Shown piece after piece: positions 1,241-44,056 of a DNA stretch of 64,000 nucleotides. A program made the position numbers and the translations under genes. Numbering within the stretch: position 1 is the first letter of the stretch; the number at the start of each line of letters is the position of its first letter. Below the pieces are notes generated by a model. That model saw nothing but the letters and a program-made list of their open reading frames with translations. It ran no database searches and was not told the DNA's origin. Source of the stretch: Pedobacter soli (GTDB lineage Bacteria; Bacteroidota; Bacteroidia; Sphingobacteriales; Sphingobacteriaceae); assembly GCF_900101435.1 (NCBI RefSeq), contig NZ_FMZH01000002.1, positions 620,001-684,000 on the forward strand, in the 5' to 3' direction.

Positions 1241-1316
1241 GAAAAAAGAAATGGAGATTCCGCAATTGCAGAATCCCCATCATCTAAATTAACGCTCTCA
1301 TATACATAAACGCTGT
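1241..1316 (-). ncRNA. Candidate small RNA with terminator, copy A
   Basis: On the minus strand a block beginning AGCGTTTATGTATATGAGAG is followed by the hairpin GGGGATTCTGC-AATT-GCGGAATCTCC (11 bp including two G-U pairs) and a T-rich tract, the form of an intrinsic terminator. Copy B at 3128-3211 shares a 35-base block upstream of the hairpin with one mismatch. The base pair closing the stem changes from U-A here to C-G in copy B. No minus-strand gene lies upstream, so this copy is not an ordinary 3' UTR. I do not recognise the family and no promoter was identified. Confidence 0.5.
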
Positions 1317-1458
1317 AAATCGGATTTATTGTGTTGACTATAATTTTTTTGCATTGGTTTGTGTCAACACGAACCAAAATTTATATCAAACCTAACACGG
1401 AGAGAAACGAATTTTAATGTTTTCATAATCTGTAACATTTAACTCCTATTTTTACTGT

Positions 1459-2148
1459 ATGGAAAAGATCAACCAAAACCAGCAAGATGCCGAAAAGCAG
1501 GCTGCAGCCCTGGCTGCTGTAAAATATGTTAAAGATGGAGATGTGGTGGGCCTAGGAACGGGATCTACCACCACTTTTGCTATTAAAGCATTAGGGGAGC
1601 TGGTAAAGGATGGTTTAAAAATTACTGCTGCTGCCAGTTCTGTTGCAACAGAAAAACTGGCCAAATCTTTAGGGATAGAAATTCTTGATCTGGGCAGCTT
1701 AAGCAAAATCGATATCAGTATCGATGGTGCAGACGAATTTACCGAATCGCTCGATTTGATTAAAGGTGGAGGTGGGGCACTTTTCAGAGAGAAAATTATT
1801 GCTTCTTTAAGTAAAAACGCTATTGTAATTACCGATGCTTCGAAAAAGGTAAAAAAGCTGGGCGCCTTTACCGTGCCTGTTGAGGTTATTCCATTGGCCT
1901 ACCAATATGTTTTCGATCAGATTACCCTATTAGGTGGGCAAGGTAAACTCAGGGTAAAAGAAAATAAAACCTTTATTACCGATAACGGAAACCTGATTAT
2001 CGATGCTGATTTCGGCCTCATTGATGATCCTGCAAAACTGTCTTCCAGTCTCAACCAGATTAATGGTGTGCTGGCGCATGGTTTGTTTATCAACATCACC
2101 TCAAAAGTAATAATGAGCGAGGGGATGGAGATTATCGTATTTGAATAG
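1459..2148 (+). CDS. rpiA: Ribose-5-phosphate isomerase A
   Basis: Interconverts ribose 5-phosphate and ribulose 5-phosphate in the non-oxidative pentose phosphate pathway, in the cytoplasm. The 229 residues are the usual RpiA length. Family motifs are all present: the phosphate loop GLGTGSTT at 31-38, DGADE at 89-93 and KGGGGAL at 102-108, which contribute the catalytic Asp and Lys. The start at ATG 1459 leaves a ten-residue polar lead before the conserved core. It stands alone: a repeat-filled 485-base gap lies upstream and a further non-coding stretch downstream, so it is probably monocistronic. Identification is secure. Confidence 0.97.
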   Translation: MEKINQNQQDAEKQAAALAAVKYVKDGDVVGLGTGSTTTFAIKALGELVKDGLKITAAASSVATEKLAKSLGIEILDLGSLSKIDISIDGADEFTESLDLIKGGGGALFREKIIASLSKNAIVITDASKKVKKLGAFTVPVEVIPLAYQYVFDQITLLGGQGKLRVKENKTFITDNGNLIIDADFGLIDDPAKLSSSLNQINGVLAHGLFINITSKVIMSEGMEIIVFE

Positions 2149-2159
2149 GATGGTTCAGT

Positions 2160-2420
2160 AGTTCATTAGTCATTAGTTTATTGGTCAATAGTCAATAGTC
2201 CATAGCCTGGTGCGTTATTATTCCATGGTCACGAGTTGTAAATTGATTATTGGTTTTTGGTCATTGATTATTGGTACTTGATCATTATCCCTCATCGTCA
2301 TTGCGAACCGAAGGACAGGGAGGGGGGCGAGCGTGAAGCAATCTTATCCGAAGTTCATACATTATTGATCCATTGAAAATTGTTAACTGCTAATTGCTAA
2401 TTGAGAATTGATCATACTCC
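2160..2420. repeat. Low-complexity intergenic repeats and half REP element
   Basis: Between rpiA and the next gene there are runs of near-identical short words (tagttcattagtcattag, ggtcaatagtcaatagtcca), a half REP copy at 2296-2345 (CGTCATTGCGAACC ... GAAGCAATCTT) and further words (aactgctaattgctaattg) near 2390-2410. No coding frame is evident. Confidence 0.55.
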
Positions 2421-2423
2421 ATT

Positions 2424-2491
2424 CACCGGTAAAATCACCGGATTTTAAATTCTCCGAAAATTTTTACCGACACTTTTATTTCACTCACCGA
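2424..2491 (+). promoter_or_regulatory. Cluster of ACCG/TCCG direct repeats upstream of a promoter
   Basis: CACCGG occurs at 2424 and again at 2436, exactly 12 bases apart. Related ACCG or TCCG cores follow at about 2453, 2466 and 2487. The cluster ends about 50 bases before the -7 box at 2543. Repeated short sites at such spacing could bind a regulator such as a LytTR-type protein. This is inference only. Confidence 0.25.
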
Positions 2492-2542
2492 TAAAACCTG
2501 ATCACTGAGGGAAAGGCTATTCTCCGGCGTGCATATCCGTGC

Positions 2543-2550
2543 TACATTTG
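2543..2550 (+). promoter_or_regulatory. Bacteroidota -7 box TACATTTG
   Basis: Matches the TAnnTTTG consensus, 20 bases before the ATG at 2571. No clear -33 TTTG was found at the expected distance. Confidence 0.45.
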
Positions 2551-2570
2551 AAGTATAAAAACAAAAGGTC

Positions 2571-2960
2571 ATGGAAACTTTCATCAAAAAAAATCACGCT
2601 GATAAACAATTTGGTTTAGGCATTTTAATCTTAGTAATCGGTTCTGTTTGCTTACTTAGAAATTCGGGAATAGATATTCCACACTGGATCTTAAAATGGC
2701 ACACGATTATGTTGGGCGTTGGTTTATGGTTAGGTTATCGCAAAGATTTTAACGGTAGCGGCTGGTTGGCCTTAACCATCATTGGTGGTTTATTTACCCT
2801 TAAATCTATAACTGTTTTCGACTTCGATCTATCGAGAATCAGCACAGCTTTGGTATTGATTGGTTTAGGTTTATATGTCATCTTAAAACCTAAAAGGGTT
2901 CAAAACTTCGATCAGTATTTCGAAAAGAAACCAGTTGACTTTAGCAATAAAGCAGAATAA
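2571..2960 (+). CDS. Small LiaF/LiaI-like transmembrane protein
   Basis: A 129-residue integral membrane protein with about four hydrophobic segments (roughly residues 15-30, 44-56, 64-80, 90-108) and short polar loops. Its end, ILKPKR followed by a charged tail, resembles the LiaI/LiaF-like transmembrane module (DUF5668 type) found in envelope-stress proteins. The same type of module occurs in the proteins at 51215 and 51925 in this window. The extracytoplasmic LiaF domain is absent. It has its own -7 box and a strong terminator and is probably a single-gene unit. The family call is moderate; the function is unknown, with membrane-stress sensing only an inference. Confidence 0.75.
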   Translation: METFIKKNHADKQFGLGILILVIGSVCLLRNSGIDIPHWILKWHTIMLGVGLWLGYRKDFNGSGWLALTIIGGLFTLKSITVFDFDLSRISTALVLIGLGLYVILKPKRVQNFDQYFEKKPVDFSNKAE

Positions 2961-2988
2961 AAATTATAACTCTATCATATACTTTGGA

Positions 2989-3022
2989 AAGGGACATTTT
3001 TGAACAGGTGTCCCTTTTTTTG
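2989..3022 (+). terminator. Rho-independent terminator
   Basis: Stem AAGGGACA / TGTCCCTT with a 12-base loop and a following T run, 28 bases past the stop at 2960. Confidence 0.85.
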
Positions 3023-3127
3023 TGGAAATAGCAGAGGGCAAGGGGCTCTGAGTATGAGGTGCTTTGAATGATAAAGAATCATCAGCAGTAAAAGGCATGT
3101 AGAAAGCACTTTGCTCTCTGCTCTATG

Positions 3128-3211
3128 CCAAAAAAGAAACGGGGATTCCACCCTTAGGCAGTATCCCCGTCATCTAAATTAACGCTCTCACATACATAAA
3201 CGCTATTAATA
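3128..3211 (-). ncRNA. Candidate small RNA with terminator, copy B
   Basis: On the minus strand it reads AGCGTTTATGTATGTGAGAG, then a conserved run to TTAGATGA, then the hairpin CGGGGAT ... ATCCCCG and TTTCTTTTTT. The block before the hairpin matches copy A (1241-1316) with one difference in 35 bases, whereas the loop differs. The minus-strand AraC gene ends at 3286, about 75 bases upstream, so this copy could also end that transcript. Copy A has no such neighbour, which favours an independent RNA or a mobile terminator-like repeat. With the terminator before it, this fills the gap 2961-3285. Confidence 0.5.
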
Positions 3212-3285
3212 GAATATATTGTGTGCAGGTTAATTTATTTTTAACTTTTTTTAAAATTAATGGTTTTGCATTCAGTTTTTTCAAA

Positions 3286-4275
3286 TTAAACCTGTTGTAA
3301 TACCGGTGCTGCTTTATGGTATTTATTGCGGTATTCAATTGGGGTTAGGCCGGTAATTTTTTTAAAAACATCCCTGAATGATTTCGTATCGGTATAACCC
3401 ACATCGAACATCACTTCAGTGATATTTTTTCGGCTCGATTCGAAACTCCGTTTAGCTGCTTCAATTTTAACCCTTTGGATATATTCAATTACCGTATTTT
3501 TGGTTGCACTTTTAAACCTTCGTTCAAAACTCCTGCGGCCAAGAGCCAGCATATCCGCCAGTTGATCGACGGTAATTTTATCCTGATAGTTCCCGTCAAT
3601 AAATTCCTGTGCTTTTTTAATCTTGGCATCCTCATGCCCTTTCTGCCCCTGAAACATCATAAAAGCCAGCTGACTTTCCCTGTCAATATCAATAGCAAAA
3701 TATTTCGCCGCCAAAATAGCGGTATCGCGGTCGGTATATTTTTCTACCAGGTACAAAAGCAGGTTCCAGTAAGAGTTTGCCCCACCACTAGAATATAGCC
3801 CTTGTGCATCGGTAATAATGCTGCCATCTACCAGCTCAACATCCGGAAACATTTCTTTAAACTGGTTGGCAAACAACCAATGGGTAGAACATTTTCGGCC
3901 GTTTAACAAACCTGTAGCAGCCAGCAAGAATGCTCCCAAACATAACGAAGCTACTTCGGCACCTTTAGCGTGATGTTTGGTAATCCAGGGCAGCAAATCG
4001 CGGTTTGTATCCATGGCATAATCTACATTCCCACTAATGGCCGGCACAAAAATAAGATCGGTGTTTTCAACTTCGTGCAACAACTTATCTGCATGTACCG
4101 AAAAAAGGCTGTTATTTAAACGTACTTCTTTGGTCATGGCTACAAGTTCAACTTTAAACAATGGCAGCTTGCCCGATGCCTGTAAAAATTCGTTAACGGC
4201 AGTAAACAGATAGCGAGGGTCGGCAATGGCTTCGATTACAGCAGTTTCGGGAATTAGGATAGATACATGTTTCAT
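3286..4275 (-). CDS. GlxA-type AraC family transcriptional regulator
   Basis: Predicted cytoplasmic regulator of 329 residues. An N-terminal DJ-1/PfpI (class I glutamine amidotransferase-like) domain spans about 1-190, with a nucleophile-elbow cysteine at 112 (ASLCLGAF). A C-terminal AraC/XylS double helix-turn-helix spans about 225-320. The frame stays open to 4542, but that stretch overlaps the divergent gene at 4447 and lacks family similarity. The ATG at 4275 begins exactly at the domain (MKHVSILIP). A TATATTTG box on the minus strand at 4341-4348 fits this start. It is divergent from the GyrI-like/VOC/DoxX set and may regulate it. The ligand is unknown. Confidence 0.9.
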   Translation of the reverse strand: MKHVSILIPETAVIEAIADPRYLFTAVNEFLQASGKLPLFKVELVAMTKEVRLNNSLFSVHADKLLHEVENTDLIFVPAISGNVDYAMDTNRDLLPWITKHHAKGAEVASLCLGAFLLAATGLLNGRKCSTHWLFANQFKEMFPDVELVDGSIITDAQGLYSSGGANSYWNLLLYLVEKYTDRDTAILAAKYFAIDIDRESQLAFMMFQGQKGHEDAKIKKAQEFIDGNYQDKITVDQLADMLALGRRSFERRFKSATKNTVIEYIQRVKIEAAKRSFESSRKNITEVMFDVGYTDTKSFRDVFKKITGLTPIEYRNKYHKAAPVLQQV

Positions 4276-43828: not shown

Positions 43829-44004
43829 AAAGGGGTGCTTACTGGTTTAAAATTCTTTTATAATCAGTTTGCTGAGATTACACCCATTGGTTTAGAAATT
43901 CCAATCACCAAAATCAAATGTTCAGACCTTTGGTTATTGTTAAATTGATTATTGGAATTTTAAAACCATGTACCTGATGCGGATAATACCGACGTAGGAA
44001 GGAG
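43829..44004 (+). promoter_or_regulatory. TPP riboswitch (THI element)
   Basis: Conserved parts in order: AGGGGTGC (P1/P2 5' side), GCTGAGATTACACCC (pyrimidine-sensing region) and ACCTGATGCGGATAATACC followed by GACGTAGGAAGG (pyrophosphate-sensing arm and closing stem). The variable P3 arm is long, with a perfect 10-bp stem AAATTCCAAT / ATTGGAATTT. It lies 53 bases before the pnuT start. Whether it acts by translation or termination cannot be decided; no T-run terminator is obvious between 44004 and 44057, which favours translational control. Confidence 0.95.
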
Positions 44005-44056
44005 GTTAGCTTTACCATGCTGTTTCGCCCCGAAAACAGTTTTCAATTATTTTTAA

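Follow-up and report, generated by a model that had tools for sequence, protein, structure and literature searches.

Two copies of a predicted small RNA in the window

The stretch of Pedobacter soli DNA analysed here (64 kb, in the following the window) harbours two short minus-strand elements in the vicinity of rpiA (copies A and B, Table 1), which are predicted to encode a small RNA (sRNA) of ~60 nt that is absent from catalogues, has nine copies in this genome and is multicopy in Pedobacter. In both cases a minus-strand block (AGCGTTTATGTATRTGAGAGCGTTAATTTAGATGA, 34 of 35 bases identical) is followed by a hairpin and a T run, in agreement with an earlier note on this DNA. The 35-bp block apparently consists of two parts, the first 15 bp belonging to a promoter and the last 20 to the 5′ end of the RNA, and thus straddles both. 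Also as described before, the closing pair is U-A in copy A (12 pairs in total, including two G-U) and C-G in copy B, with pairing kept in both; the previous description of the stem had left unmentioned an A-A mismatch and two G-U pairs in copy B. Predicted folding energies are -22.3 kcal/mol for copy A (z -4.7) and -23.4 kcal/mol for copy B (z -3.4), with no shuffled sequence being equally stable in either case. The 20-mer core GAGAGCGTTAATTTAGATGA occurs in the window only at copies A and B, and 100 shuffled windows contained none, even with 3 mismatches allowed.

Both copies resemble independent genes of ~58–60 nt, each with its own predicted promoter and terminator (the ends of copy A were set from the positions of promoter boxes and terminator). 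Therefore, copy B need not be a 3′ untranslated region, as had been considered in the earlier note, and the transcript of ~75–100 nt proposed there appears too long.

Table 1 Features of the two predicted sRNA loci and their neighbourhood in the window (ECF, extracytoplasmic function)
Feature	Position	Strand	Description	Evidence
Copy A	1242..1299	-	Predicted sRNA, 58 nt; 5′ end 1299, last U 1242	Match to covariance model R1, E 2.4e-12
Copy A, 5′ module GAGAGCGTTAATTTAGAT	1282..1299	-	Invariant 18 nt	
Copy A, terminator hairpin	1252..1279	-	Followed by T run 1251-1242	Folding, covariation
Copy A, predicted ECF-like promoter	1300..1331	-	CAATAAAT at 1331-1324, CGTTTATGTATAT at 1312-1300	Motif profile of 51 thinned copies, pattern match
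Copy B	3130..3189	-	Predicted sRNA, 60 nt; 5′ end 3189, last U 3130	Match to model R1, E 3.0e-11
Copy B, 5′ module GAGAGCGTTAATTTAGAT	3172..3189	-	Invariant 18 nt	
Copy B, terminator hairpin	3140..3169	-	Followed by T run 3139-3130	Folding, covariation
Copy B, predicted ECF-like promoter	3190..3221	-	CAATATAT at 3221-3214, CGTTTATGTATGT at 3202-3190	Motif profile, pattern match
rpiA	1459..2148	+	Ribose 5-phosphate isomerase A; divergent from copy A; neighbour of the element in 30 loci	Pfam PF06026, 1.7e-59
LiaF-like membrane protein	2571..2960	+	Convergent with copy B; neighbour of the element in 24 loci	Pfam PF22570
DJ-1/PfpI + AraC-type regulator	3286..4275	-	Upstream of copy B, same strand; neighbour of the element in 19 loci	Pfam

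Size and distribution of the family

A family covariance model built from 32 diverse copies detected nine copies in this genome (E<1e-6), the next match being five orders of magnitude weaker (E 0.11). The same model found 3–19 copies in each of the 62 sampled genomes of the genus (62/62), and a single copy in each of 15 genomes from the family's other genera; among the latter matches, one is weak and partial (E 0.0036). The search across Pedobacter genomes that the earlier note had proposed as a check thus yielded many more homologues.

The first 18 nt of the predicted RNA (GAGAGCGUUAAUUUAGAU) are almost invariant. The core is exact in 8 of the 9 copies of this genome, and in the single-copy loci that the model found in sister genera it is exact in 12 of 14 and differs by one base in the other two. 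Of 395 genomes searched in the phylum, four contain the 18-mer GAGAGCGTTAATTTAGAT without mismatch: three from the window's genus, with 5–8 copies per genome, and one from a sister genus. The exact 20-mer was retrieved from at least 118 stretches of bacterial genomes, nearly all of them Pedobacter among the matches listed.

With a covariance-model score at or above the gathering cut-off taken as membership, Rfam 15 (including Flavo-1) contained no family matching copies A and B or the other copies tested from this genome and from sister genera; nor was a description of the element found in Rfam or in the searchable literature. The existence of the family, covariation in its hairpin, promoter motifs at a fixed distance and copies in phages are apparent from the sequences themselves, and the family very probably represents an sRNA family.

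Predicted promoters and RNA ends

Four facts point to GAGAGCG as the probable 5′ end of the RNA. Most copies are preceded by a two-box promoter motif (AATAAAT around -32, CGTYTATAT starting at -13) and have a pyrimidine at -1 (profile of 51 copies thinned for similarity). In other copies its place is taken by TAnnTTTG, the housekeeping box of Bacteroidota, which likewise ends some 5 nt upstream of the core. In 108 copies thinned for similarity and counted without prior choice of promoter classes, CGTNTA starts at -13/-12 in 41 and TANNTTTG at -13/-12 in 12, both being rare elsewhere. The two unrelated types (ECF-sigma-like and TAnnTTTG) are thus placed at the same distance from the core, both ending at its start. 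Boxes with the shape of classical ECF promoters (e.g., TGTAACCTT...CGTAAAA) precede the single-copy loci of sister genera, again at this distance. In one phage contig (L424) the core begins directly at the 3′ end of a gene for transfer RNA (tRNA)-Met, so that tRNA end processing could yield the same 5′ end.

The 3′ end is marked by the intrinsic terminator, its T run following in 147 of 153 distinct copies. Together with a 5′ end at GAGAGCG, this predicts an RNA of about 55–60 nt.

Covariation of the hairpin and variant forms

With 82 distinct copies aligned by fitting to the model, 85 % of cells pair (vs. 61 % in shuffles), each of the 11 modelled stem pairs changes on both sides, and the covariation score is 0.618 compared to 0.215 for shuffled alignments; the signal is lost when partners are slid (≤0.201). 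This alignment leans towards its own model; a plain MAFFT alignment gave covariation in the same direction. Selection on the hairpin is for folding and not for sequence.

A minority of copies, in this genome and in others, belongs to a "long form", in which a hairpin displaying UGAGAGC in the loop is added on the 5′ side and another stem reaches into the core; the first stem of this form covaries as well. Long-form loci are G000:C9:124625-124677 and C9:340645-340695 (L009, L008), as well as L383, L391, L397 and the phage contig L435. A further locus, G000:C14:549317-549352 (L169), has two nearby AAGAGCGTTAATTT copies, one of them within the inverted repeat CCATATCTAA/TTAGATATGG, and no terminator; it may be a degenerated copy or act as a sponge.

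Copies in phages

The exact 18-mer is present in 31 viral contigs of IMG/VR (L408–L438), while two control 18-mers of the same composition gave no match (0 and 0). A strong hairpin directly follows the core in 28 of these 31 contigs, compared to 3 of 21 near-variants of the core. The carriers comprise microviruses, tailed phages and one 183-kb phage with tRNA genes and a transfer-messenger RNA (tmRNA); proteins encoded on carrier contigs match portal, tape-measure and head-morphogenesis families, and a Microviridae capsid in case of L420. Genes for tRNAs are present in 8 of the 31 viral stretches. Three microvirus-like contigs of ~5 kb have the element preceded by a TATATTTG box and immediately followed by the next ATG. 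Since several phage hairpins are near-identical (five contigs share a AGCGGTTGAGTTTGGAT hairpin), the 31 contigs are not all independent. Plasmid and annotated phage records gave no match with BLAST, which cannot see the 18-nt core.

Genomic context

Among 91 distinct neighbour settings of the bacterial copies, all intergenic, only 28 have the following gene on the same strand, which argues against a function as a leader in bacteria. Both window loci are old and syntenic across the genus (30 loci on the rpiA side, 24 on the LiaF-like side), and local tandem duplications of the element are frequent. As a functional clue the neighbouring genes were rejected, being too diverse.

Further sequences were observed around the two copies. 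A perfect 10-bp inverted repeat (TTGGTTTGTG/CACGAACCAA-like; 1354-1377), operator- or terminator-like in appearance, is located between copy A and rpiA. Dispersed-repeat-like sequence is found at 1072-1100 and 2298-2345 (CATTGCGA...GAAGCAATC), and also at 1213-1240 (GATCCTTCGACTACGCTCAGGATGACA), where it borders directly on the terminator of copy A. The only Rfam family reaching its cut-off in the window is the Flavo-1 RNA motif (RF01705; 25180-25266, 40560-40647 and 53688-53777). A match to the thiamine pyrophosphate riboswitch at 43922-44017 (+) stays below threshold (37.9 bits, cut-off 54.3) and retains the CUGAU...GCGGAUAAUACCG core.

Comparison with known RNAs

Flavo-1 is likewise a repeated RNA motif of Bacteroidota, but differs in sequence and structure and gave no match at copies A and B even at E values up to 10. 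An ECF-type promoter set to the 5′ end, a feature of sigma-E-type sRNAs, is present at the level of the motif. sRNAs of that type repress envelope mRNAs, their 5′ end doing the pairing. RybB and MicA of enterobacteria are short, sigma-E-dependent sRNAs with an ECF-type promoter, an effector at the very 5′ end and a terminator behind it. The Pedobacter family is predicted to share this design, but is unrelated in sequence, has many paralogues and its targets are putative.

The closest analogue in design is FopS/GibS of Bacteroides. These multicopy Bacteroidota sRNAs consist of a conserved single-stranded 5′ stretch followed by an intrinsic terminator (PMC11697453, PMC7366714), with 12–15 copies per genome and an occurrence in a Caudovirales phage (PMC11697453). 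The Pedobacter family likewise combines a conserved single-stranded 5′ stretch, an intrinsic terminator and multiple copies. No sequence relation was seen; FopS is deposited in Rfam according to its paper (PMC11697453), whereas the Pedobacter family gave no match to the Rfam copy used, in which the FopS entry was left unchecked. Furthermore, FopS has sigma-ABfr promoters, whereas most Pedobacter copies have ECF-like ones; the predicted Pedobacter RNA is shorter; its hosts are Pedobacter and sister genera as opposed to Bacteroidaceae; and FopS, which binds the protein RbpB, has known targets (susC-type mRNAs), whereas none were found here. Rfp18 of Flavobacterium, another conserved structured trans-acting sRNA of Bacteroidota, is set apart by its description, with about one copy per genome and the pairing region in the third stem-loop (PMC9723704).

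Proposed function and alternative explanations

Own promoter and terminator, intergenic position and conservation with covariation, all found here, are general characteristics of trans-acting sRNAs. The explanation considered best, with moderate confidence, is that the copies are paralogous, intergenic, trans-acting sRNAs of ~55–60 nt sharing one fixed 5′ effector module in host and phage. Most copies would be transcribed from ECF-sigma-like promoters and some from TAnnTTTG promoters, with the G of GAGAGCG as first nucleotide and a stop at the intrinsic terminator that follows shortly after the 18-nt core. The effector would be the 5′ module, which is invariant and single-stranded; the hairpin needs only to fold, and its sequence is therefore free to drift. 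Most likely, the module (chiefly GAGCGUUAAU) would pair with messenger RNAs (mRNAs) near the translation start, such that a stress sensed by the sigma factor would turn down a set of messages, as in case of sigma-E-driven RybB/MicA or Bacteroides FopS, with the phage copies acting on the same circuit. We infer transcription, the choice of sigma factor, action in trans and a benefit to the phage. Given an sRNA, the prospects of mRNA pairing seem evenly balanced; it is favoured because the anatomy is that of an sRNA with a 5′-terminal effector, like the sigma-E-dependent sRNAs and FopS.

A weak hint of such pairing is the occurrence of TTAACGCT near gene starts (11 compared to a mean of 1.9 for permuted 8-mers). 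Several results weigh against this explanation. The TTAACGCT signal is largely due to signal-peptide codons (Fisher p 0.017 after codon control, uncorrected), and the enrichment was not repeated in an unbiased gene set; one apparent replication was discarded, since its set included loci fetched by that same pattern. Duplex energies at 1843 gene starts were no better than for shuffled cores, and complementarity to the core was not enriched in 38 SusC/TonB-type genes. Across 99 genomes, sites complementary to the core and followed by ATG were near the control (~59 non-sRNA sites vs. ~54 among the matches listed). In some of the phage copies no clear T run is present, and several stand behind a second G+C-rich hairpin in place of a promoter. 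Finally, "ECF" is a reading of the motif, which makes the assignment of the sigma factor putative.

Individual sites were also recorded. At G000:C13:139160-139177, a perfect 15-nt complement of the core immediately precedes the start codon (ATG) for a 451-aa protein that has no Pfam match; two orthologues retain the site, in one case altered in a way that still permits G-U pairing, and such sites occur at about chance level. A CAATAAATAAATGTCTAATTAACGTTTAT-like site (G000:C14:144126-144154), retained by almost all of the ten genomes in the comparison and away from phoH, here precedes a reverse-strand sugar-kinase-like gene and is perhaps a sugar operator. A co-regulation of phoH was rejected, as the conserved motif is far from phoH in other genomes. 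Pairing with ribosomal RNA (rRNA) was considered as well; the DNA analysed contains no rRNA operon.

The main rival to mRNA pairing, possible if rather unlikely, retains the sRNA family but takes the 18-nt module as the binding site of a single conserved protein of the host (an RNA chaperone, an RNase or RNA polymerase), the RNA serving as decoy or co-factor and phages making their own. The near-absolute invariance of the 18 nt across genera and unrelated phages, and likewise the absence of target enrichment, are explained by a single protein as partner no less well than by many mRNAs, and the long form carries a second UGAGAGC in its hairpin loop. Decoy RNAs such as CsrB, however, typically carry repeated binding sites, which the module lacks, and the protein partner is hypothetical. 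More tentatively still, and with some doubt, the module may be a regulatory signal common to Sphingobacteriaceae and very different phages (tailed, 183-kb and single-stranded-DNA microviruses), its invariance stemming from a host machine (RNA chaperone, RNA polymerase or ribosome) and not from mRNA seeds. If true, this would be a new type of host-phage regulatory RNA.

It is improbable that the element is a leader, the core at the transcript start modifying RNA polymerase or termination for the next gene: the position directly before an ATG in the three microvirus-like contigs fits such a role, but the strand of the next gene in bacteria and the strong terminator with long T run behind the core do not. 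Very little probability is assigned to an element acting as DNA (phage attachment or recombination site, mobile repeat). An exact 18-mer common to host and phage and the local tandem duplications would agree with it; however, the core is followed by a covarying hairpin and preceded by two promoter types set to it, the loci are syntenic across the genus, and phages from 5-kb microviruses to the 183-kb tmRNA phage are unlikely to share one recombinase. Equally hard to credit is a recurrent intrinsic terminator with merely a conserved neighbour and no functional RNA, since, although most copies end in a strong terminator, it is the terminator that varies, the conserved part lying 5′ of it behind its own promoter, and copies also occur between divergent promoters (e.g., copy A beside rpiA).

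The earlier note had left the choice between a small RNA and a mobile terminator-like repeat. The former is well supported by homologues and strong covariation, and this idea was right in kind, though wrong in extent and size. The latter found no support: what is frozen is the 5′ end, which is single-stranded and preceded by a promoter, conservation is not centred on the hairpin, and the two loci are syntenic across the genus and not scattered, although local tandem duplications occur.

Implications

The trans-acting sRNAs proposed here would form a new family of a known general kind, unusual in that its 18-nt module is frozen and that very different phages carry it. For Bacteroidota other than Bacteroides, regulation by RNA has been little explored. 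An sRNA that is present in many copies, is apparently driven by a stress sigma factor and has a 5′ end frozen across genera and also present in phages offers a clear handle on it. The 18-nt module used as bait could reveal the partner, and the 5-kb microviruses provide a minimal setting for asking why a virus keeps the element.
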